This document shows, piece after piece, positions 8,332-20,794 of a stretch of 46,057 bases of DNA. Positions within the stretch are counted from its first letter, which is position 1. Each line of letters opens with the position of its first letter. This stretch comes from Spirochaetales bacterium. GTDB taxonomy: Bacteria > Spirochaetota > Spirochaetia > Sphaerochaetales > Sphaerochaetaceae. The translations under genes were made by a program, and so were the position numbers. The notes under the pieces were generated by a model. The model made no database searches, had not been told where the DNA came from, and saw only the letters and a program-made list of their open reading frames with translations. The stretch lies in contig JAFVDZ010000055.1 of assembly GCA_017478205.1 (NCBI GenBank), positions 1-46,057 of the forward strand, written 5' to 3'.

Positions 8332-9546
8332 ATGAAGATAGAACCAAGACCAATGTGCTCATGTGGCAAAGTTCATCCTTTAGGAGAGAGCTGTGATATT
8401 TCTCAGAACAATCTCGATGAACTGAAAACAGCTTATGATAGAGCATTGAAGGAGTTTGGCAAGGATAGTGCTGTCACAGCTACTATCGGTATGAACATTG
8501 CTCTTAGTGGAAATGATGCTGAAAAGATAGAGATAGCTGCACGAGAAATCTTGAGGACTATGGAAAAGACCAACATCCTCTATCTTCAATCCTACTTCAT
8601 CCTGCTTCAGACCTTTACAGATAGGAGAATGAAAAAGGAAGCATTTGCAGTAGTAGATGAAATCTATTCATACCTTGAAACCGAAGAGGCCCAGACTTTC
8701 ACAAAGGAAGTCATGATAAACTTTGCAGGTAGCAGTGGACTATTCCTAAAGGCCTTTGGTGAGAAGACTGCAACTCGTTACATCGATAAAGCTATAGACT
8801 TTGCAAAGGACAAGAGCCTTGAAGAGAGTGAAGGATATGCTCTTCTTCTCACAGCCAAAGCGCAGATATTGGAAGGGGATAGCCTGATGTGTGTCGATTC
8901 TCTTCCTCTCATGGAAGAAGCATTCAACATTCTAGTAAAGGTCGATGGATATGAAGCGAAGCTCACAGAACAAATGTTTGAGGACATCATGGACCTCCAC
9001 ATCAAATTCAAGAGTGAAAAGAGCTATGTTGATGCCTACCTTGATAAGATTCTCTCTTCGATCGAAGACAAGGAAAGTGATACATATATCTCTTATGCTC
9101 TCACTCCAGGTGCCTACTATATAAATAGAGGTATGGAAGATGAAGCGATAGAACTTGCAGATCGTTTCATCGAAAAAAGAGAAGGAACTGATCCACTACA
9201 TCTTCAAGCAATCTACCTCAAGGCTCTAGCAGAGCAGAGCAAGGGCAATCATAGGGCAGCTCTCAGACTATTTACAAAACTCAAGGAGATAACTGTTGGT
9301 TTCTATCGTGATGGTTCATCACAGATCGGTACAGTGCTTTCCTCTATCGCTTTCAACGCAGAAAAGGTCGGTCGCTATGAACTTGCAGCCAAATCTCTTG
9401 AGGAGCTTATAGCAAGAAACGCTCCTTCTCCATCCCTTGGTTCAAGACTAGATGTACTGATGAAACTCAGGGAGCTCTATCAGCTTTCGGGTCACCAAGA
9501 TCTTGCAGATGAAATTGATATGGCACTTAGCAATCTGAAACCTTAA
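8332..9546 (+). CDS. TPR-like helical repeat protein with N-terminal Cys motif
   Basis: A 404-residue, mostly helical protein with repeated amphipathic helix pairs of TPR type (for example around AIYLKALAEQSKGNHRAALRLF, about 287-308, and VGRYELAAKSLEELI, about 343-357). The N-terminus has a compact Cys/His cluster, Cys9, Cys11, His15 and Cys21 (CSCGKVH...GESC), which could bind one zinc. No signal peptide, so cytosolic. It ends convergently with the FAD dehydrogenase gene; the two stop codons share TTAA and overlap by 4 nt. Such proteins are usually scaffolds; nothing in the sequence names a partner. Confidence 0.65.
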   Translation: MKIEPRPMCSCGKVHPLGESCDISQNNLDELKTAYDRALKEFGKDSAVTATIGMNIALSGNDAEKIEIAAREILRTMEKTNILYLQSYFILLQTFTDRRMKKEAFAVVDEIYSYLETEEAQTFTKEVMINFAGSSGLFLKAFGEKTATRYIDKAIDFAKDKSLEESEGYALLLTAKAQILEGDSLMCVDSLPLMEEAFNILVKVDGYEAKLTEQMFEDIMDLHIKFKSEKSYVDAYLDKILSSIEDKESDTYISYALTPGAYYINRGMEDEAIELADRFIEKREGTDPLHLQAIYLKALAEQSKGNHRAALRLFTKLKEITVGFYRDGSSQIGTVLSSIAFNAEKVGRYELAAKSLEELIARNAPSPSLGSRLDVLMKLRELYQLSGHQDLADEIDMALSNLKP

Positions 9547-11072
9547 TTTTCTTTCTTCCCAATCAAGATATTTGCAGCGGCAATGCCATCGAGGGCAGCT
9601 GAGACAATGCCACCTGCATACCCAGCTCCCTCACCTACAGGATAAAGTCCCTCAAGTTGTGTAAAATCCTCTCCTCTGAGGATTCTGACAGGTGAGCTTG
9701 TCCTAGTTTCAGGTGCCATGAGGACAGCATCGTTTGTTATGAAGCGACCTCGTGTCATTCTTCCAAAGTCATTAAAGCCGTCCCTCAGACGGGATGTTAT
9801 GATTTCAGGAAGCACCTCATCGATCTTTCTTGAGACAACACCTGGCGCATATGAAACTTTTGGAAGCGAAGTGCTCTCCTTGTTCTGTATAAAGTCTCCC
9901 ATTCTTTGACATGGAGCCTTATAACCATTCATGAAGCAATTTCTTTCAATCTCTTCAAGATATCTCATCATCCCAAGAGTATCCTGATATGGGATATCCT
10001 CTCTCTTGAGCTGGACAACCATTCCACTGTTTGCCCATCTACCACCTCTATTTGATGGACTCATGCCATTGACAACCAATGCATTCTCTTCAGTGCTTGC
10101 GGGAACAACAAAGCCACCTGGACACATACAGAATGAGTATACTCCCCTCTCACGAACCTGAGTTACGAAGCGATAGCTTGCTGCAGGAAGATATAATCCT
10201 CGCCCATTTGCACTATGATATTGCATCTCATCGATAAGAATCTGAGGATGCTCAAGGCGAACACCAATTGCCACATCCTTAGCTTCTAGGCTATATCCCT
10301 CTTCATGAAGGAATCGATAGACATCCCGAGCTGAGTGACCTGTTGCCAGAATTACAGGACCACGAAACTCACTTCCATCTTGGCATCTGACACCAACTAC
10401 ACTATCTCCCTTTCTGATAAGAGATGTTACTTTGGTGCCAAAATGAACTTCACCACCATATTTAATTATTGTGTTCCTGATATTTTCAATGACACGAGGA
10501 AGTTTATCTGTTCCAATATGTGGATGAGCATCTGAGAGAATATCCTGAGATGCACCATGCTGGCAGAAGAGGGAGAGAACTTTGTTCACATCTCCCCTTT
10601 TTACACTTCTTGTATATAGCTTCCCATCTGAGAATGCACCTGCACCACCCTCACCGAAGGCATAATTCGATTCAGTATCAAGTACACCATCTCTTGAAAG
10701 AGTTGCAGTATCTACCCTTCTCTTATGGACATCCTTTCCTCTCTCAAGCACGATTGGTCTGTATCCATGTTCAAGCAGCGTCAATGATGCAAACAATCCA
10801 GCAGGTCCACTTCCAACAACTATTACAGAATCCTTGCAAGCTTCCTTGAATGGTGTGATATCGTAGATCACTTTTTCTTCTTCACCGATGAAAACTCTGA
10901 CTCTACCCTGGATTTTTACATCCATTCTTCTTGCATCGATGCTTTTCTTTATAAACCTTACACCATTGATATCTTCACTCTTGAGTTTGAGTTTTCTTGC
11001 AACAAAACTCTTGAGCTTTTCTGCAACCCCAGCTTCCATAGGGGTTAGAACAACATCCAATTCCTTGATCAT
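9543..11072 (-). CDS. FAD-dependent dehydrogenase, COG2509 type
   Basis: A 509-residue flavoprotein. After an N-terminal domain of about 80 residues (RARRMDVK-like basic strand typical of COG2509), the FAD-binding dinucleotide fold starts at about 84 with VVGSGPAGLFAS, followed by VLERG, YAFGEGGAGAFSDGKL (about 138-153), an ATGHSARD motif (about 243-250) and a C-terminal GEGAGYAGGI (about 478-487) that completes the FAD site. Members are widespread but poorly characterised oxidoreductases; the substrate is unknown. The ATG at 11072 has no ribosome-binding site, and a TATATT box ends 6 nt before it, so its mRNA may be leaderless. Divergent from the ABC-F gene. Confidence 0.85.
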   Translation of the reverse strand: MIKELDVVLTPMEAGVAEKLKSFVARKLKLKSEDINGVRFIKKSIDARRMDVKIQGRVRVFIGEEEKVIYDITPFKEACKDSVIVVGSGPAGLFASLTLLEHGYRPIVLERGKDVHKRRVDTATLSRDGVLDTESNYAFGEGGAGAFSDGKLYTRSVKRGDVNKVLSLFCQHGASQDILSDAHPHIGTDKLPRVIENIRNTIIKYGGEVHFGTKVTSLIRKGDSVVGVRCQDGSEFRGPVILATGHSARDVYRFLHEEGYSLEAKDVAIGVRLEHPQILIDEMQYHSANGRGLYLPAASYRFVTQVRERGVYSFCMCPGGFVVPASTEENALVVNGMSPSNRGGRWANSGMVVQLKREDIPYQDTLGMMRYLEEIERNCFMNGYKAPCQRMGDFIQNKESTSLPKVSYAPGVVSRKIDEVLPEIITSRLRDGFNDFGRMTRGRFITNDAVLMAPETRTSSPVRILRGEDFTQLEGLYPVGEGAGYAGGIVSAALDGIAAANILIGKKEN

Positions 11073-11135
11073 GTGCTTAATATATCAGCAACGTTCTTGA
11101 GAGAGAAGATATTTAATTGTTATTATCCCTGTGTT
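11073..11135. promoter_or_regulatory. Compact divergent promoter with two leaderless-type starts
   Basis: Only 63 nt separate the two start codons. Plus strand: TTGAGA (11097-11102), an 18-nt spacer, TATTAT (11121-11126), then 9 nt to the ATG at 11136. Minus strand: TATATT ends 6 nt before the ATG at 11072, with TTCTCT 17 nt further upstream. Neither start has a Shine-Dalgarno. Promoter assignment is by consensus matching. Confidence 0.5.
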
Positions 11136-12989
11136 ATGAATGTCCTTTCCATAGAGAATCTAATGAAGACTGTTAATGATGAGCCTCTCTTTTCTGAGGT
11201 CTCTCTTGGCCTTGAACATAATGAAAAAGTAGGTATTGTTGGCAAGAACGGAGCTGGCAAGTCTACATTTTTGAAAGTGATCAGTGGAATCCTCCACCCA
11301 GATGAAGGAAAGATCAGCAAAGCCTCTGATGCAGATATGGTCATGCTTGACCAGACTGTTTCCTTCAAGGAAGGAACAACCATCAAAGAGTACTTCTATG
11401 AAGGGCAGGGTCACAGACTCGATATACTTAGAGATAGTGAAAAGGCACTTGTAAGTGGAAACGACAAAGAGTATCAGCGCCTATTGCCTCTGTTGACAAA
11501 TCTCGACTGCTACAAGCTTGAAGTCGATTTCGTCTCTTTACTTACAGATATGGGTCTGAATCTTCCACTTGATACCAAGATGGAAAAGCTATCTGGTGGT
11601 GAACAGAAGAAGGTTGCAATCGCAAGAGTCTTTGCAGTCAAACCCTCAATCATCCTACTTGATGAAATCACGAACCATCTAGATATCAAGACAATAGAAT
11701 ATATCGAGTCCTATATTCAAAATGTCAATGCAGCAGTAATCCTAGTTACTCACGACAGATATATTCTCAACTCAGTCTGCTCTACAATCTGGGAGTTAGA
11801 TAGAGGACACTTCTATAACCATCCAGGATCATATGAAAGTTATCTTGAAAGAAGAGCTGAAAGGATCGACATGGAACAAAAGGAGCAGGATAGACTCCAG
11901 AACATCCTCAATCGTGAGTTGATTTGGCTATCTCGCGGTCCTCAAGCGAGAACAGGAAAGGACAAGAATAGAAAAGAAAGGATCATGAACATGCTTTCTC
12001 AAAGAAAGAATGTCCAGGATGTAAAGCAGGTCCAGTTCTCATCTCTCGAAAGAAGACTTGGAAAGAAGATTCTCGATATCGAAGGTGTTGGTTATTCCTA
12101 TGGAGAGAGGACACTCTTTAAAGATGTCACATACGACTTCAAGAAAGGAGACCGTATTGGCATCGTTGGTGATAATGGAAGTGGGAAATCAACATTCCTT
12201 GATATAATTACAGGCGCTCTAAAACAGACCGAGGGAACGATAGATGTAGGTATAAACACCTATTTTGGCTATTATGACCAGCTTGGAAGGAACCTCGACA
12301 CAAAGAAGACAGCTTTGGAGTATATCAATGAAATCGGATCTAGAATTCTCATGGGAAGCGGAGAAGTTTCCTCCTCCCGTTTCCTTGAAATCTTTGGCTT
12401 TCCTGTCTCAAGACAGAGAACTGAAGTATCTGTATTTTCAGGTGGTGAGAAACGAAGATTATATCTATTGTCAAAGATTGCAAGAAACCCTAATTTCCTA
12501 GTTCTCGATGAACCAACAAACGACCTGGATATCAAGACAATGGAGAATCTGGAGGAGTATATATCCTCATTTCCTGGCTGCGTTCTGATAGTAAGCCACG
12601 ACAGAGCCTTCCTCGACTGCACTTGTGATATGCTCTTGATACTGGAAGATGGGAAGATGACACTCTTTCCAGGTCACTACTCCCAGTACAAGGAACAGAA
12701 AGACAAGATAAAGGCTGAAAAGGCAGAGAATAAGAGTGAAGGCAAGAAAAACTGGAAGATGCCTAGAGAAAAGAAAGGCCTATCATTCAAAGAGAAAAAA
12801 GAATTCGAAGAGCTGGAAATAGAAATTAGCTCACTTGAAGAACTTATTTCCCGTCTTGAAGAAAGCTTTGCAACTTCCGATGTAACTGAAGATGGAAATC
12901 TTCAGGAGCGAACACAGAAATATGAAAAGGCAAAGCAGGAGAAGGATGAAAAGGAAGAGCGCTGGCTCTATCTTGCTACAAAGGAGTAA
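11136..12989 (+). CDS. ABC-F family ATPase (Uup/Ettl-like)
   Basis: A 617-residue soluble protein with two ABC domains and no membrane segments, the ABC-F arrangement that acts on ribosomes as translation factors. First domain: Walker A GKNGAGKST (about 36-44), signature LSGGEQKK (about 151-158), Walker B LLDEITNHLD (about 174-183; Ile in place of the usual Pro). Second domain: GDNGSGKST (about 346-354), FSGGEKRR (about 437), VLDEPTNDLD (about 460). A linker with basic helices and a C-terminal coiled coil (last 80 residues) fit Uup-like members. I chose the ATG at 11136 because it starts the conserved MNVLSIENL; the frame extends 21 codons upstream but reads into promoter sequence. The stop abuts the convergent membrane-protein stop with no gap. 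Confidence 0.88.
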   Translation: MNVLSIENLMKTVNDEPLFSEVSLGLEHNEKVGIVGKNGAGKSTFLKVISGILHPDEGKISKASDADMVMLDQTVSFKEGTTIKEYFYEGQGHRLDILRDSEKALVSGNDKEYQRLLPLLTNLDCYKLEVDFVSLLTDMGLNLPLDTKMEKLSGGEQKKVAIARVFAVKPSIILLDEITNHLDIKTIEYIESYIQNVNAAVILVTHDRYILNSVCSTIWELDRGHFYNHPGSYESYLERRAERIDMEQKEQDRLQNILNRELIWLSRGPQARTGKDKNRKERIMNMLSQRKNVQDVKQVQFSSLERRLGKKILDIEGVGYSYGERTLFKDVTYDFKKGDRIGIVGDNGSGKSTFLDIITGALKQTEGTIDVGINTYFGYYDQLGRNLDTKKTALEYINEIGSRILMGSGEVSSSRFLEIFGFPVSRQRTEVSVFSGGEKRRLYLLSKIARNPNFLVLDEPTNDLDIKTMENLEEYISSFPGCVLIVSHDRAFLDCTCDMLLILEDGKMTLFPGHYSQYKEQKDKIKAEKAENKSEGKKNWKMPREKKGLSFKEKKEFEELEIEISSLEELISRLEESFATSDVTEDGNLQERTQKYEKAKQEKDEKEERWLYLATKE

Positions 12990-14093
12990 TTACAAAAGAG
13001 CATAGAATGGGTATAGGATTATCTGGATTGCAGAAAGCTCTGTTGTCTGAAGTATAACGCCTTTCTTTATCAAGAAAAAACCTAATGAGATCATGATAAA
13101 GCCAACAATGTAGAAGGCAATCTGTTTTCTGAGAAGCATCAGCACTTCTCTTGCAATTGGCATCAATTCTCTATCAGATAGCTCTATATTCATGCTCTGA
13201 AGCAGCTTCTCCCCCTTAGCAACATGCTCATTTAGTTTCCTTAGTTCAATCAAGACTCCATCAACTACAGATCTTTCCCTGATTATACTGATTACATAAG
13301 GAAGCAAGGATCTTGCAGTTCTGATAAGTCCAACAATAAAGAGCAGTATGGAAGATGCCATAAACATGGCAGAAATATATGCGCTAAGGCGTTTACCAAA
13401 GATTGGGGTGACCGAGAACATGATCGAAAAGAGATAGAGAAGGAGAATTTCAAGACTCCTTCTATACTTATTCGAGAATGAAAGTCTGATGAACTTGGTC
13501 ATCTGTGACTTGATATAGTTCTTTGCAGTTTTGACCAGCGTCTCCTTGAGTTGATGTTCCTTCTCGATCAGATCCTCATTCATCTTCTTGAGATTCTTAT
13601 AGACGTCTGTAAGCTGGTTCTCTTCAAGATAGTTACCAGCAAAGCTACCTGCCATCGCACCCATCTTTGCACCGACTACTGCTCCACCGAAAAGACCAAA
13701 GGTCTTCATACCAAACTTCTTGAGTCTAGGTGGGAGATTATCAACGACATGCATCGCCTTTTCAGGGTCTCTCTTGATCTTTTCGATTGTCTTTCCAAAG
13801 AGCTTGCTCATCAAAGTGTTCTTCTTTGGTTTTGGATCTCTTGCAGGTAGTTTGCTTCTAAGTCTTTCAAGAGGTGCAAAATTGCATAGCAACGCCGAAA
13901 TTGCAGATTTTCTTGCATCTAGAGGAACTTCACGGTCAGAAGCGATCTCCTTTAAAAGCAAGACCTCTTCATCACCATTCAACTCATCATTTTCTGTTTC
14001 TTCAGGATAGCTGATGCTTTCGATCTCGACATCTTCTGCCAGATCTTGTGCCCTTTTGAGGTTTACATCATATTTTCTATCATTCAGATCCAT
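12990..14093 (-). CDS. Membrane protein of unknown function with glycine-rich segment
   Basis: A 367-residue protein starting MDLNDRKYDV. The N-terminal 110 residues are charged and cytosolic. A Gly/Ala-rich amphipathic stretch (GLFGGAVVGAKMGAMAGSFA, about 142-161) precedes a helix, and hydrophobic segments follow in the second half (around ILLLYLFSIMFSV, AMFMASSILLFIVGLI, IAFYIVGFIMISLGFFLI and the C-terminal IIILYPFYALL-like end). No family recognised. The start at 14093 is preferred over a TTG 12 codons upstream because that TTG coincides with the -35 box TTGTCG, which is followed by 17 nt, TATATT and 7 nt to the ATG; there is no ribosome-binding site. Divergent from the TetR gene. Confidence 0.65.
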   Translation of the reverse strand: MDLNDRKYDVNLKRAQDLAEDVEIESISYPEETENDELNGDEEVLLLKEIASDREVPLDARKSAISALLCNFAPLERLRSKLPARDPKPKKNTLMSKLFGKTIEKIKRDPEKAMHVVDNLPPRLKKFGMKTFGLFGGAVVGAKMGAMAGSFAGNYLEENQLTDVYKNLKKMNEDLIEKEHQLKETLVKTAKNYIKSQMTKFIRLSFSNKYRRSLEILLLYLFSIMFSVTPIFGKRLSAYISAMFMASSILLFIVGLIRTARSLLPYVISIIRERSVVDGVLIELRKLNEHVAKGEKLLQSMNIELSDRELMPIAREVLMLLRKQIAFYIVGFIMISLGFFLIKKGVILQTTELSAIQIILYPFYALL

Positions 14094-14172
14094 AGTGAAT
14101 AATATATCAATCTTGAGTACAAACGACAAACCACTTTTTAATTAATTCTTTTACTTAGATGAAATAAGAAAA

Positions 14173-14194
14173 TGTTAACGAAAATTCGTTATCA
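14173..14194. promoter_or_regulatory. Operator 1 for the TetR-type regulator (22-bp palindrome)
   Basis: TGTTAACGAAAATTCGTTATCA is an imperfect palindrome built on TAACGAA/TTCGTTA. It matches operator 2 at 14241 in nearly every position (AACG in one copy, ACCG in the other). It lies upstream of the -35 box of the regulator promoter and about 80 nt from the divergent membrane-protein gene. Confidence 0.65.
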
Positions 14195-14210
14195 ATTTAC
14201 TCCCGCCTGG

Positions 14211-14240
14211 TTGACATTGATATCACTTTCAACTTATATT
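14211..14240 (+). promoter_or_regulatory. Promoter of the tetR-tolC-RND operon
   Basis: TTGACA (14211-14216) is followed by 17 nt and TTATAT (14234-14239). Transcription would start near 14247, inside operator 2, so a bound repressor would block initiation. This is the only good promoter before the efflux genes, so the regulator probably controls itself and the whole operon. Confidence 0.65.
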
Positions 14241-14262
14241 TGTTACCGAAAATTCGGTTACA
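14241..14262. promoter_or_regulatory. Operator 2 for the TetR-type regulator (22-bp palindrome)
   Basis: TGTTACCGAAAATTCGGTTACA is a near-perfect palindrome (half-site GTWACCGAA). It overlaps the expected transcription start and lies 68 bp from operator 1, centre to centre. It ends 7 nt before the regulator's ATG. Confidence 0.7.
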
Positions 14263-14269
14263 AAAGAAG

Positions 14270-15412
14270 ATGAAAAGAAACACTAAACTTGAAATCATAG
14301 AATCTGCAATCAAGCTTAAGGCAGACAACCCATTAGATAATCCAAGTCTTCAAGACATAGTCACAAGCATTGGAATATCCAAAGCTGCCGTCTACAGACA
14401 TTTCAAGAACAAGCAGGAACTTGATGATGAAATCGATAGTGTCCTGAATGAGGATGCAGCAAGATTCTTTGAAATTGCCAGCCAGAATCCCAAAGATATT
14501 ACTCCTATACTGATTCTTCTTGCCAACTACTGCGTCAAGAAGAATCACCATATGAGAGTTCTTTTCATGAAGATAATGAAAAACGCCGTTCTCAGGTCAA
14601 AATTTTGTCAGCTAATTACAGGTAAAGGCTACAGAGAAGATACAATTGCGACAATCTTCATGGCTACACTCTTTGGCATACACGTAGAAGAGTTGAGAAT
14701 TACCAAGAAAGACGTCAAGGAAAATGAAATTGAGAAGATTGTCAACCATATAATCACATGTCTTGATAATGGTATTCTTGAATTCAACGATATCGATAAG
14801 AATAAAATTCATAAAATCTTTATGAATTCCATTCCAAAAGATGAAGATATCAAGGAAGATAAGTATCTAAATGCATTGAGCGACCTGATCGTCAAAAGTG
14901 GGATATCCTCGATCACAATCAAGAATATTGCCCTAACTCTTGGCCAGGCTGAAAGCACACTCTACTCTAAATTCACAACCAAGGAGGAGATGATAAGGTA
15001 CACAGCAAGAAAGGAGCTCAAAAACCTGCTCTGCCCTCTTCAAAAGAAGATGGAAGAGTATGACGAGAGCTCAGAAAAGCTAATTGCAATGTTTTCATTC
15101 ATTTCGAACTACATTGCCCTTTCTCCTGAACTGACAAGCTATATCCTTCTTCTCTGCATCCCTAGAAATCAAGAAAAGGAACATTTTATAGTAGAGGATT
15201 TCTACAACATGATTTCCTGTATTCCTATACAGGATATACATGTCAAATATGATTCAAACATCGAGCACTTGAAATTCTGGTGCTTTGCCCTTGCAGTTGT
15301 TCTAGGCATAACCACTAGACAACAGACTTTTAAGGATAGAAAGGATAGTATCTTTTCCATCTTCGATTATATAAGAAACGGAATATATACCGACAATAAG
15401 GAGAATATATGA
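14270..15412 (+). CDS. Tandem TetR-type regulator with two helix-turn-helix units
   Basis: A 380-residue protein, about twice the usual TetR length. The first TetR DNA-binding unit is at about 5-50, with the helix-turn-helix around SLQDIVTSIGISKAAVYRHF (27-46). A second at about 198-245 has TIKNIALTLGQAESTLYSKF (217-236), with the same LYxxF ending and following KEEM-type helix. Each is followed by about 130 residues of helical, ligand-domain-like sequence. The chain therefore looks like two fused TetR subunits that could form a single-chain pseudo-dimer. I start at the ATG at 14270 (purine-rich AAAGAAG just before it) because the ten upstream codons overlap operator 2. The stop overlaps the TolC gene start by 4 nt. 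It most likely represses its own operon and the efflux genes. Confidence 0.8.
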   Translation: MKRNTKLEIIESAIKLKADNPLDNPSLQDIVTSIGISKAAVYRHFKNKQELDDEIDSVLNEDAARFFEIASQNPKDITPILILLANYCVKKNHHMRVLFMKIMKNAVLRSKFCQLITGKGYREDTIATIFMATLFGIHVEELRITKKDVKENEIEKIVNHIITCLDNGILEFNDIDKNKIHKIFMNSIPKDEDIKEDKYLNALSDLIVKSGISSITIKNIALTLGQAESTLYSKFTTKEEMIRYTARKELKNLLCPLQKKMEEYDESSEKLIAMFSFISNYIALSPELTSYILLLCIPRNQEKEHFIVEDFYNMISCIPIQDIHVKYDSNIEHLKFWCFALAVVLGITTRQQTFKDRKDSIFSIFDYIRNGIYTDNKENI

Positions 15413-16698
15413 AAGCAAACAAGATCGTGTTATTCATGATCCTACTTCTCCTCGCCATCGCTGTTCTTCCAGCAAGAAGCATCAGCGTTGATGAGGCTGT
15501 GAATCTAGCTCTCTCTTCATCTCTTCAGATGGAGAATGCCAAGCTTGAGCTTGATTCACTAAAGAGACAGAGCAAGGATTCCTGGGGAACACTATTACCA
15601 ACGATGAGAGTTTCAGGCACCCTTGCCAAGGCAGAAAATCCTGCTACATATCAGGAATTTTCAAACACCTCGGCCAATCTGGCTTTTAACTTCAGCTTCA
15701 ACTTCTCACCTGCCATGATAACCTCAATCAGGGCAACAAAGCAGAGTTACATCAATGGACTACTAACATATGAGCAGGCTAAAGCAGAGATGAAGGTCAA
15801 TGTCGAAAAGCTTTATTATGCAATTGTCCTTCAGGAAGAAGCTTTGAAAATCAAGCAGGATTCATTGCAGATAAAGAAAGATAGAATGGATCAGGCTTTG
15901 ACAGACTTTGAAAATGGCTATGTTCCTGAACTCTATGTTCTCAACACTCAGGTAACATATCAGAATGCAAAGCCAGAAGTTGATGAAGCAGAGCTTTCTC
16001 TTGCAGCAAACAAGAGAAATTTTGCATTCCTCCTTGGCCTTGATATTTCAGAAGAGATCACACTCACTGATACAATCGACCAGGATATGGTCGAGATCAA
16101 TGAAGCCACTCTTCTTGGTAATATCGCAATGAGATATGACCTTAGCAATATCGCAAATTCAGCAAAGCTTCTAAAGCTTAATAAGAGAGCACTTCAGGAG
16201 AGTGCATTCCTGCCAGCAGTAGCTGTCACAGGTGCCTATGGACAATCTCTTGGTGTTATCAAGGATGACAACTGGCTCGACCTTGACAACTACATAGAGA
16301 CCAAATCTCTCTCCGTCACTGTAGCTTATGATCTTGCAAACCTCTTCCCTCAGTCCTCTACAAGACAGAATCTCAAGAAGATAAAGGAAACTGAGAATCA
16401 GCTTTCAATCCAGTACAGGATGGCTGAAGAAGGAGCAAGACTCGAGGTTCTCTCACTGTTTGATAAGCTCCAGACAACCAAGGAGCAGATCGAAAACTTT
16501 GACAGAACTGTAAGACTTGCTGAAAGCAGCTACAAAATGACCCAGGAATCCTACAACAACGGTACAAGTGATTATCTGGACTTAAAGGATGCAGAAAACT
16601 CTCTTGCACAGGCAAGACTCGGTAGACTCTCAAGTCAATACGATTACCTTTCTGCACTCATCGATCTTGAATATGCAACTAATCAGAATATCCGATAA
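15409..16698 (+). CDS. TolC-family outer membrane efflux protein
   Basis: A 429-residue protein with a signal peptide (about 1-25, cleaved near LPARS) and two internally similar long-helix halves typical of TolC. Markers are SVDEAVNLALSSSLQMENAKLEL (start of the first half, about 26), a second half with a similar heptad pattern, and the conserved YxNGTSDYLDLKDAENSLAQA region (about 383-402) near the end. It should form a trimeric outer-membrane and periplasmic channel for the RND pump encoded downstream. AAGGAG lies 6 nt before the ATG; the start overlaps the regulator stop by 4 nt, and 12 nt separate its stop from the adaptor gene. Confidence 0.9.
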   Translation: MKANKIVLFMILLLLAIAVLPARSISVDEAVNLALSSSLQMENAKLELDSLKRQSKDSWGTLLPTMRVSGTLAKAENPATYQEFSNTSANLAFNFSFNFSPAMITSIRATKQSYINGLLTYEQAKAEMKVNVEKLYYAIVLQEEALKIKQDSLQIKKDRMDQALTDFENGYVPELYVLNTQVTYQNAKPEVDEAELSLAANKRNFAFLLGLDISEEITLTDTIDQDMVEINEATLLGNIAMRYDLSNIANSAKLLKLNKRALQESAFLPAVAVTGAYGQSLGVIKDDNWLDLDNYIETKSLSVTVAYDLANLFPQSSTRQNLKKIKETENQLSIQYRMAEEGARLEVLSLFDKLQTTKEQIENFDRTVRLAESSYKMTQESYNNGTSDYLDLKDAENSLAQARLGRLSSQYDYLSALIDLEYATNQNIR

Positions 16699-16710
16699 AG
16701 GAATTACAAT

Positions 16711-17604
16711 ATGAAAAGAAGAAATGTAATGATTCTTGCAGCACTTATTGCTGTAGTGACCTTAACATCCTGCTCCAAGGGCCAGGCTTCAAAAGAAGTA
16801 GCGCAGACAGATGCAGTGATTACAACTCCTGTATATGTATCAGATGTAAAGACAGGTACTATCATCGAGTATCACAGATTTGGTGGTACTGTAACAGCTA
16901 AGGATTCTGTCACTATCCTTCCAGATGCTGCCGGCAAGATTGCTAGCGTACTTGTAGAGGAAGGCGATGTAGTCAAGAAAGATCAGGTAATTGCTACTGT
17001 CGACCCTTCAAGAGCTGGACAGACATACAATCTTTCCCCAGTCAAGTCTACACTTGATGGAACTGTTACAAGCGTAAATGCATCCTATGGTGATACAGTC
17101 AGCCAGGCAACACCAGTTGCAATCGTACAGACGCTTGATAATCTTGAAATCTCTTTCAATGTCATCGAAAAGTTCGTGAACATTGTCAACAAGGGAAACA
17201 AGGCCATTGTTACCTTCGATGCATTCCCAGATGAAGAGTTCAGTGCAACCATTACCTATACAAGCCCTACCCTCGATACAAACACAAGATCCAGAAGTGT
17301 CAAGGCTAAGCTTGATAAGGCTGATGACAGAATCATCGCTGGTATGTATGCACGCTTGAATGTAATCACAGAGGAAAAGAACAATGTTATCGTAATTCCT
17401 TATTCAGCAGTTTCAGTTACCAACAGTGGTTCCTTTGTATACATTATCAAAGATGGTCAGGCTTTCAAGACTGATGTCGAAATTGGTATCAGACAGGGCT
17501 CAGATGCTGAGGTCCTCAGTGGTCTCAAGGTTGGCGACAAGCTCGTTACCAGAGGTCAGACTCTGCTTTCTGATGGCGCAAACGTAAGAATTATCAACAA
17601 CTAA
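16711..17604 (+). CDS. RND efflux periplasmic adaptor, lacking the alpha-hairpin
   Basis: A 297-residue lipoprotein-type adaptor. The signal peptide ends LTSCSKG (Cys about 21), so it should be lipid-anchored. The two lipoyl half-motifs are present (GKIASVLVEEGDVVKKDQVIATVD, about 71-94, and LDGTVTSVNASYGDTV, about 112-127) but are separated by fewer than 20 residues, with no long coiled-coil hairpin as in AcrA or MexA. The beta-barrel (around FSATITYTSPTLDTNTRSRSVKAKL) and membrane-proximal domains (from about 225) follow. Borrelia BesA is known to lack the hairpin in the same way. It should link the RND pump to TolC. Confidence 0.88.
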   Translation: MKRRNVMILAALIAVVTLTSCSKGQASKEVAQTDAVITTPVYVSDVKTGTIIEYHRFGGTVTAKDSVTILPDAAGKIASVLVEEGDVVKKDQVIATVDPSRAGQTYNLSPVKSTLDGTVTSVNASYGDTVSQATPVAIVQTLDNLEISFNVIEKFVNIVNKGNKAIVTFDAFPDEEFSATITYTSPTLDTNTRSRSVKAKLDKADDRIIAGMYARLNVITEEKNNVIVIPYSAVSVTNSGSFVYIIKDGQAFKTDVEIGIRQGSDAEVLSGLKVGDKLVTRGQTLLSDGANVRIINN

Positions 17605-17617
17605 ATCAGGAGAAAAG

Positions 17618-20600
17618 ATGTCAATTTCAAGAACTAGTGTACGTAAACCAGTTACCGTACTTATCATTTTCATCCTCCTTGTACTGCTCGGTCTGAACAG
17701 TGCGCAGAAGCTTGCAATCGAGCTCATTCCTGATCTCGATATTCCATATGTCATTGTTTCCACAACATATCCGAATGCAAGCCCTGAAGAGGTTGAAGAC
17801 AAGGTAACAAAGACCTTGGAAAATGCACTTTCCTCGGTTTCGGGTATAAAGAATCTGACCAGTACATCACGAGAAGGTCAATCCATGGTAATGATGGAAT
17901 TCGAGGTTGGTACCAATCTCGATGATGTTTCCATCACTGCACGAGATAGAATCGATCTCATAAGAGATTATCTTCCAGAGGATGCAGATAGCCCTATCTT
18001 GATAAAGATCGACCCATCAATGATGCCTATCATGGTACTCACCATGAACTCAAGCACAAGGACCGCAGATGAGATCAAGAAGATTGCAGATGACGTCCTT
18101 TCACCTAGAATCGAGCAGCTCGATGGTGTTGCATCAGTATCACTCATGGGTGGTCGAACAAGAGCAATCAGAGTCGAGATTCCAAAGGATAGACTTGAAG
18201 CCTATGGCCTCACCTTCTCATCAATTGGCCAGATGATCGCAGCACAGAATATGAACACTTCTGTTGGTAATATCACAGAAAATGGTATCGAGTATTCTGT
18301 TCAGGCAGATGGTCTTTTCACAAGTGTCGAGGAAATCGGTGAGACTGTTATCAGCTACAAGGCTCTCTCTGATGGAAAGATACATCAGATCAGACTCAAT
18401 GAGATTGCTAACGTCTACGATGGCTATAAGGATGCAGATTCCTACACCTACTCTTTCGGTGAGGAGTGTGTAGCTCTTACCATCTCAAAGCAGACAGGAA
18501 AGAACAGTGTTGCAACAGCTAACAAGATCATTTCAAAGCTTGATGAGTTCAGAAGCATCATTCCTTCCGACTGTGATATCCAAGTTGTCTATAACTCTGC
18601 AGAAGAGATCGAGAATGCAATCAATAACGTTGCTTCATCAGCACTCACTGGTGCAATCTTTGCAATTCTTGTTCTTCTCCTCTTCCTTAGAGCAATCAAG
18701 TCAACTATCATCATCGGTATCACAATCCCAATCTCCATTGTCATCACATTGCTTTTGATGTATTACTCTGGATTCTCACTGAACATGATGACACTTTCAG
18801 GTCTCGCACTTGGTGTCGGTATGCTCGTCGATAACGCAGTCGTTGTACTTGAGAATATCTTCTCATATCAGGAGAGAGGAACAAGACCAACAGTTGCAGC
18901 CATCTTGGGTTCTGAGGAAATGGTCATGGCCATCACCTCTTCAACCTTGACTACAATCTGTGTATTCCTTCCGCTTGTCATGTACAAGAAACAGCTAGGA
19001 ATACTTGGTCAGATTTTCGATCAGCTTTCATTGACTATTGTATACTCACTTCTTTCATCTCTTGTTGTTGCTGTTACACTCGTACCTGTACTTTCAAGTA
19101 AGTACCTTGTAACAAAGAACCTCAAGACAAGAAAGAACAAGAAGTTCTTCAAGGTCACTGAAGATCTCTTCATAAAGCTCGATAATGGATATGCATCAGC
19201 TGTAAGATGGATCCTCCACCACAAGGCTATCTTCATCGGTGTCATCTTCATCCTCTTGGTTCTCTCAATCAAGATGGCAACTATCATTGGCTTTACATAT
19301 ATGCCAGACCAGGAGTCAACTTCCCTATCTGTAAAGGTTGAACTTGCTCAGGGTACAGACCTCGAGACAACACGTGATGTAATCAATAGAGTTGATAAGG
19401 CATTGCTTTCAACCTTCAAGGGTGTGAAGACCAATGCAGCCATGATCGGTTCATCCATGATGATGAGCAGTTCAGCAGGTACCAACTCTGGAACAATCAT
19501 GTATACGTTCTACACTGCAAGTGAAAGAGAGGAAGGTTGGGATACTGGCACAACAGCAAAGGCTAAGGTCGACCTCATCAAGGACGACTTCCCAGAAGCT
19601 ACAATCACTGTATCCGAATCAACAAACACATCATCAATGGGTGGCTCATCCGGTATCGCTGTAAAGGTCATCTCAACAGACCTTGATGCAGTTAGAGAGG
19701 TTTCTGGACAGATTGTCACTCTCCTTGAAGAGAAGGCAGGCTCTCTTGTAAAGAATGTCGACTCCTCAATGGAAGATGGAACACCTCAGCTCACTATCAA
19801 GTACGATAGAGACAAGATGTATTCACTTGGTATCAACATTGCTACTGCAAACGCAGAAGTAAAGGCTAATATCGGTGGCTCCACATTTGCACGCTATAGA
19901 GAACAGGGTGAAGATGTCGATGTAATCCTTACTCTCCCAGATGAGGACAAGAAGACACAGCTCGATCTTGAGGATATCATGGTCACAAGCTCTTTCGGCA
20001 ACCAGGTACCACTTTCGGCCTTTGCTTCCGTTGTTGAGACAAGAACAGCTCTCTCCATCTCAAGAGAGAATCAGAGCCGTATCGTAACTGTTTCAGCATC
20101 AAGCACTGGTCTCAAGCCACTTTCTGAAACTCAGAAGGATATTGCAAAGCTCATCGATGAGAACATCCCAGTCAGCGACAATGTAATCATCGACTACTCA
20201 GGTGACTATGAAAGCATGATGGATGCAATCAAGACCTTCACGGAAATCATCATCGTAGCTATCTTGATGGTATTTGCAGTCATGGCAGCTCAGTTCGAAA
20301 GCTTCTTGAAGCCATTCATCGTTCTCTTCTCTATGCCACTTGCAGTCATTGGTATCGTTGCAATCTACACAATGACAGGACTTCCATTCAATGTTATCAC
20401 AGCAGTTGGTTGTCTTATCCTTGTTGGTATTGTAGTAAACAACGGTATCGTACTTGTCGACTACATTGGTCTTATGCAGAAGAGAGGACTCAATCTTGAA
20501 GAAGCCTGTGTAGAAGCAGCAAGATCAAGACTCAGACCTATCTTGATGACTACACTCACAACTGTTCTAGCTCTTGTTCCAATGGGATTCTTCCCTGGTG

Positions 20601-20794
20601 AAGGTGCAGAATTCTCAGTACCAATTGGACAGACAGTACTTGGTGGTCTTTCATTCTCAACCTTGATGACACTCTTCATGATGCCTACCCTCTACTATAT
20701 CTTCGGAAAGGGCAAGGAAAAGAGATCTATCAAGAGAAAGCAGAAGGAACTCCAGGAAGCACTCAAGGAGGATGAAAAGTATGCAGAAGCTTGA
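17618..20794 (+). CDS. RND-family efflux transporter (AcrB-like)
   Basis: A 1058-residue inner-membrane pump with the RND layout: TM1 (about 12-30), a large periplasmic loop (about 31-340), TM2-6 (about 345-500), a second TM7 and loop (about 540-870), and TM8-12 (about 875-1025). The TM4 region has GLALGVGMLVDNAVVVLENI, carrying the Asp needed for proton relay, and a second glycine-rich segment near TM10 (VGCLILVGIVVNNGIVLVDY). It should export hydrophobic or amphiphilic compounds using the proton gradient; the substrates are unknown. AGGAG lies before the ATG and 13 nt separate it from the adaptor gene. The 3' end overlaps the next small gene. Confidence 0.93.
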   Translation: MSISRTSVRKPVTVLIIFILLVLLGLNSAQKLAIELIPDLDIPYVIVSTTYPNASPEEVEDKVTKTLENALSSVSGIKNLTSTSREGQSMVMMEFEVGTNLDDVSITARDRIDLIRDYLPEDADSPILIKIDPSMMPIMVLTMNSSTRTADEIKKIADDVLSPRIEQLDGVASVSLMGGRTRAIRVEIPKDRLEAYGLTFSSIGQMIAAQNMNTSVGNITENGIEYSVQADGLFTSVEEIGETVISYKALSDGKIHQIRLNEIANVYDGYKDADSYTYSFGEECVALTISKQTGKNSVATANKIISKLDEFRSIIPSDCDIQVVYNSAEEIENAINNVASSALTGAIFAILVLLLFLRAIKSTIIIGITIPISIVITLLLMYYSGFSLNMMTLSGLALGVGMLVDNAVVVLENIFSYQERGTRPTVAAILGSEEMVMAITSSTLTTICVFLPLVMYKKQLGILGQIFDQLSLTIVYSLLSSLVVAVTLVPVLSSKYLVTKNLKTRKNKKFFKVTEDLFIKLDNGYASAVRWILHHKAIFIGVIFILLVLSIKMATIIGFTYMPDQESTSLSVKVELAQGTDLETTRDVINRVDKALLSTFKGVKTNAAMIGSSMMMSSSAGTNSGTIMYTFYTASEREEGWDTGTTAKAKVDLIKDDFPEATITVSESTNTSSMGGSSGIAVKVISTDLDAVREVSGQIVTLLEEKAGSLVKNVDSSMEDGTPQLTIKYDRDKMYSLGINIATANAEVKANIGGSTFARYREQGEDVDVILTLPDEDKKTQLDLEDIMVTSSFGNQVPLSAFASVVETRTALSISRENQSRIVTVSASSTGLKPLSETQKDIAKLIDENIPVSDNVIIDYSGDYESMMDAIKTFTEIIIVAILMVFAVMAAQFESFLKPFIVLFSMPLAVIGIVAIYTMTGLPFNVITAVGCLILVGIVVNNGIVLVDYIGLMQKRGLNLEEACVEAARSRLRPILMTTLTTVLALVPMGFFPGEGAEFSVPIGQTVLGGLSFSTLMTLFMMPTLYYIFGKGKEKRSIKRKQKELQEALKEDEKYAEA

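Follow-up and report, generated by a model that had tools for sequence, protein, structure and literature searches.

A tandem TetR protein predicted to repress its own RND efflux operon, and its double-length family in spirochaetes

The window analyzed here (the whole stretch of DNA under study, 46,057 nucleotides from a Sphaerochaetaceae genome) carries at 14270–15412 on the forward strand a gene for a predicted repressor in which two TetR units follow one another in a single chain. This protein is likely to act as a dedicated autoregulatory repressor on the RND efflux operon that it heads. One chain would form an intramolecular pseudo-dimer, with one helix-turn-helix (HTH) placed on each arm of its operator. 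Its domains, its operon, its operator with the conservation of that operator, and the conservation of both HTHs are apparent from sequence comparison, as set out below.

The reading frame is open from the ATG at 14270 to the TGA at 15410–15412 and encodes 380 residues. This ATG is preferred as the start because the two closest orthologues begin in the same way (MKRNT...); an upstream TTG (14240) was considered and disfavoured, as it would fall within the conserved operator. TetR proteins are usually, if not universally, homodimers of chains of ~200 residues; here 380 residues hold two units. When the two halves were scanned separately against PF00440 (TetR_N), residues 9–51 of the N-half matched with E 2.8e-10 (40.3 bits) and residues ~202–243 of the C-half with E 2.1e-5 (24.6 bits), both above the curated cut-off of 24 bits, and the whole protein matched over two stretches with E 2.9e-17. 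The initial claim of two TetR units per chain, made in a sequence-only reading of this DNA, is borne out by these matches together with the AlphaFold model. A genome-wide scan places both TetR_N matches inside one 414-codon open frame, the sole gene with two TetR_N in one frame within the 1.9-Mb genome, where other TetR genes are also present. Nor is the frame an assembly artefact, since full-length homologues occur in more than 100 other genomes. The N-terminal DNA-binding domain (residues 5–51; 14282–14422, +) contains the predicted recognition helix SKAAVYRHF, in which S37, K38 and A40 are invariant among 75 homologues, and is followed by a putative ligand/dimerization domain (residues ~52–172; 14423–14785, +) that is helical in the AlphaFold model. 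The C-terminal DNA-binding domain (residues 195–241; 14852–14992, +) has AESTLYSKF as its predicted recognition helix, with S229 and Y232 of this HTH invariant in the same 75 homologues, and precedes a second putative ligand/dimerization domain (residues ~242–372; 14993–15385, +) assigned from model helices and from profile likeness to the N-half ligand domain.

The AlphaFold2 model of the window protein, with the 75 homologues as input, has pLDDT 90.3 and pTM 0.86; that of a family member only ~20% identical to it (L077) has pLDDT 91.6 and pTM 0.90. With pTM this high, the halves are expected to have a fixed arrangement relative to each other. In the window model TetR-like helices are predicted in the N-half at 5–19, 27–34 and 38–42 and in the C-half at 198–210, 217–224 and 228–234, each series being followed by an all-helical block of ligand-domain size. 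Full-length Mce3R of M. tuberculosis (9b7y) is the closest solved structure to each of the two models, with E 1.5e-6 and TM scores of 0.55/0.54 (window) and 0.56/0.57 (L077) over 402/422 columns. Mce3R is the only significant solved relative over the full length, the TM score (query) of single TetR chains being no higher than 0.39; a single-chain pseudo-dimer, as had been proposed beforehand, stands as the best structural reading of the models. The fit to Mce3R has an rmsd of 8–9 Å, which indicates that the angle between the halves differs.

The halves have diverged, as the sequence-only reading had supposed: BLASTP detects no similarity between N-half and C-half (E 0.32), yet a profile-profile comparison aligns them with E 5.3e-15. 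Mean pairwise identity across the family is 49% in the DNA-binding domain and 18% in the ligand domain of the N-half, and 42% and 22%, respectively, in those of the C-half; with conservation confined to the DNA-binding domains, and present in the two of them, neither HTH looks vestigial. The ligand-domain profiles of the two halves also match each other (E 8e-6), whereas in an admittedly small control two sets of single spirochaete TetRs gave no match (E at least 0.19). By this comparison the halves more probably stem from a tandem duplication than from a joining of unrelated genes, and the gene fusion originally suggested is less likely where it would have joined different TetRs. Within the spirochaetes the family goes back a long way, and its probable origin is one TetR gene duplicated in tandem.

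The tandem TetR gene stands first in an operon of the order repressor, outer-membrane efflux protein (OEP), membrane fusion protein (MFP), RND transporter. The TolC/OEP gene (15409–16698, +; PF02321, E 4.9e-40) has a start codon that overlaps the repressor stop (ATGA), and is followed by that of the periplasmic adaptor MFP (16711–17604, +; PF16576, E 1.3e-22) and that of an RND transporter of the AcrB/AcrD/AcrF family (17618–20794, +; PF00873, E 5.4e-240). A scan of 84,980 species, from which the best 80 loci were taken, returned 79 double-length proteins, all spirochaetal and mostly from Treponema (among them T. berlinense, T. ruminis, T. parvum, T. saccharophilum and T. zioleckii, with one from a MAG titled Brevinematales); the remaining locus, from Desulfacinum, encodes a single TetR. 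Downstream of these 80 loci an OEP gene is found in 75, an MFP gene in 72 and an RND gene in 68, and the loci that do not show these genes are contig ends or the one single TetR. Wherever a double-TetR locus has enough downstream sequence the OEP gene comes next, and MFP and RND genes nearly always follow.

Double-length proteins are widespread in the phylum, occurring in 70 of 393 sampled genomes and in 32 genera. In the taxonomic family of the window a double-length homologue is present in 8 of 139 genomes, and there these proteins (E 1e-121 or better) are sharply set apart from single TetRs (1e-16). The two nearest relatives of the window protein are encoded by a Sphaerochaetaceae MAG (61% identity) and a Spirochaetales MAG (53%). 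In two other genomes, G486 (locus L208) and G443 (locus L209), an apparent frameshift interrupts the double-TetR gene, reflecting either sequencing error or loss of the repressor; that these split genes represent a pre-fusion state was rejected, because their overlapping reading frames look like frameshifts of a double gene.

Upstream of the window gene a sigma-70-like promoter is predicted from a -35-like hexamer TTGACA (14211–14216, +) and a -10-like hexamer TATATT (14235–14240, +), with 11 of 12 matches and an 18-bp spacer. The upstream region (14130–14270) also holds two copies of an inverted repeat, 68 bp apart: a predicted distal operator TGTTAACGAAAATTCGTTATCAA (14173–14195), which has a counterpart in the orthologue L068, and a predicted proximal operator TGTTACCGAAAATTCGGTTACAA (14241–14263). 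The proximal copy covers the expected transcription start, since it starts at the nucleotide next to the -10 hexamer and stops 6 bp short of the ATG. Both are instances of a near-palindromic 20-bp motif, GTTACCGAA-NN-TTCGGTAAC, that lies upstream of 79 of 82 genes, the other three being at contig edges. All 79 readable promoters score at least 15 of 18, against none of 800 control stretches drawn from the same loci (top control score 14), and dinucleotide shuffles of the window gave no chance match. Searching the whole genome with up to one mismatch returned no site beyond these two, and so no sign of a wider regulon, which suggests a local regulator. The ACCG centres of the two arms are 11 bp (~37 Å) apart, the usual TetR spacing.

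In distant families of the phylum the operator survives in the form of GTTA(A/C)CG-type boxes; a termite-treponeme member has GTTACCGAAC.GGTCGTTAAC. Promoters often hold two or three boxes, at spacings of about 20 and 25 bp. Upstream of the repressor genes of L100 and L104 two boxes stand back to back, ~20 bp apart, and form perfect 24-bp palindromes (e.g. ACGGTCGGTAATATTACCGACCGT), an arrangement that may accommodate two adjacent repressors; L070 and L071 have three tandem boxes ~22 bp apart immediately 5' of the start codon. Some single TetRs of ~200 residues in related genomes (the g10 group: L012, L015, L028) are preceded by a shorter palindrome, AGTTACCGAACGGTAACT, whose TTACCG arms agree with those of the double-TetR operator and whose arm centres lie 7 bp apart instead of 11 bp. 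The g16 group of single TetRs (199 residues, from the taxonomic family of the window) has no such box upstream.

It is most likely that the halves of one chain pair on DNA, that the protein represses, that the stoichiometry is as described here, and that a ligand releases it. One chain would fold as an intramolecular TetR pseudo-dimer in the manner of Mce3R, with the N-terminal HTH on one arm of the operator and the diverged C-terminal HTH on the other, so that one chain would serve per operator. Repressor bound at the proximal operator would block RNA polymerase, given that this operator covers the expected transcription start, and a pump substrate entering a ligand domain may then alter the spacing of the HTHs and cause the DNA to be released. 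Mce3R seats both its HTHs, ~32 Å apart, on one duplex (PMC11667970), and the 11-bp arm distance of the spirochaete operator would suit this mode.

If two different HTHs read the operator, its arms might be expected to differ, and several observations bear on this. Position 9 departs from A in one arm only (29 one-arm cases and no two-arm case, against 20 one-arm cases expected, at 45% clustering), an excess with permutation P of 0.002–0.013 that varies with the clustering; deviations at position 5 share an arm with those at position 9 in a ratio of 18:1, as expected from two different HTHs. In every readable box of the window clade the upstream arm is nearer consensus and the gene-proximal arm deviates more. 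A general test of arm asymmetry across operators was not significant (P 0.07–0.19), which, together with the rmsd of the models to Mce3R, counts against the pseudo-dimer explanation. Substitution of A by S at residue 227 of the C-terminal HTH tracks the change from C to A at operator position 5 (phi 0.86), and residue 17 of the N-half likewise tracks the operator (phi 0.92). Assignment of arms to HTHs by such covariation was rejected, because the entire signal is one deep clade split and fails phylogenetic control and multiple testing; for the same reason the covariation of residue 227 with position 5 also counts against the preferred explanation. The earlier expectation that the protein can bind non-identical half-sites did not hold in that form: the predicted operator is near-palindromic in all readable homologues, and its asymmetry, at positions 5 and 9, is subtle. 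A refined version is offered tentatively, at somewhat below an even chance, in which single-chain TetRs throughout the spirochaetes have duplicated and diverged HTHs that read, one of them, a strict GTTACCGAAC arm and, the other, a freer GTTA[C/A]CGA arm followed by a variable base, linked in cis; within this version the strict arm is probably read by the N-terminal HTH. If true, the family would provide a natural series of stepwise loss of operator symmetry after repressor duplication.

The near-symmetry of the operator also counts against the intramolecular pseudo-dimer, because a plain homodimer acting through one kind of HTH would produce it too. In such an arrangement two chains would pair N-half to N-half on the palindrome, leaving the C-half for dimerization, ligand sensing or a second operator (by looping between the boxes 68 bp apart). 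Besides the near-palindrome in all homologues, the greater invariance of the N recognition helix (S37, K38, A40) and the frequent occurrence of two or three boxes per promoter are consistent with it. However, AlphaFold confidently packs the halves of one chain together and each of the two models fits Mce3R from end to end, the C-terminal HTH is conserved nearly as well as the N-terminal one, and identical HTHs would not readily explain why the arms differ at position 9; we consider the inter-chain homodimer unlikely.

Palindrome and non-identical HTHs would be reconciled if each box were bound, as by QacR or DesT, by two single-chain pseudo-dimers arranged about its dyad, the box being palindromic and the site of each chain asymmetric. 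Mce3R is indeed a C2 dimer of pseudo-dimers, although each of its protomers holds a separate duplex (PMC11667970). This arrangement is nonetheless improbable: a 20-bp box is short for two dimers, and with ACCG arms spaced at 11 bp a single TetR unit fits already. That the box belongs to a different regulator, with the tandem TetR acting elsewhere or as an activator, is conceivable insofar as the genome has other TetR genes; it is very improbable in view of the joint occurrence of box and tandem TetR in all 79 readable promoters across the phylum, the presence of the box only at this locus in its own genome, and the finding that the best box matches in the taxonomic family (0–1 mismatch) are nearly all found in front of tandem TetR genes. 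The single-chain pseudo-dimer with one HTH per arm is accordingly preferred.

Double TetRs are a recognized but uncommon subfamily: 204 have been predicted in Actinomycetes, and the structure of one is solved (PMC11667970). The predicted proteins of Actinomycetes have the same tandem domain order, and belong to another phylum (PMC11667970). Mce3R likewise has two TetR units in a chain of ~400 residues with both an N- and a C-terminal HTH (9b7y; PMC11667970), and is reported to have one ligand-binding domain per chain (PMC11667970); the two different ligands put forward in the sequence-only reading are speculative. Unlike the near-palindromic spirochaete operator, however, its site is non-palindromic and 25–27 bp long (PMC11667970), and it controls lipid genes, whereas the spirochaete target is an RND efflux operon. 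The spirochaete family profile aligns with the Mce3R sequence over the first HTH region only (72 residues, E 3.9e-16), no better than with ordinary single TetRs, and the two double forms therefore probably arose independently; the spirochaete family differs in operator, target and sequence. AcrR, MtrR and TtgR are local repressors that likewise adjoin an RND operon, and the N-half HTH resembles those of AcrR and MtrR; unlike the double-length spirochaete protein, all three are homodimers of ~210 residues. No NCBIfam equivalog comes near its cut-off (MtrR 42.9 of 280 bits, AcrR 40 of 271 bits), and a literature search found no description of a spirochaete tandem-TetR family. The only solved double TetR binds a non-palindrome, and here there is a large independent family (more than 100 sequences) with a fixed operon context and a recognizable operator, which makes it possible to test what advantage a repressor has from being in tandem and whether the two HTHs differ in how they read DNA. 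A likely regulator of an RND efflux operon is also named for many treponemes. Such a repressor may also suit designed gene switches, since it would require no subunit assembly and its HTHs could be changed separately.

On the other side of the promoter region lies a divergent gene (12990–14129, -) without a Pfam family, whose likely start is an ATG at 14093; its product is 69% identical in the nearest relative (L068), which shares the arrangement. The distal operator (14173–14195), located in the shared intergenic region, might also control this gene. Also beside the efflux operon, an ABC-F type duplicated ATPase (11073–12989, +) and an FAD-dependent oxidoreductase-like protein (9543–11072, -) are encoded, both ordinary by Pfam.
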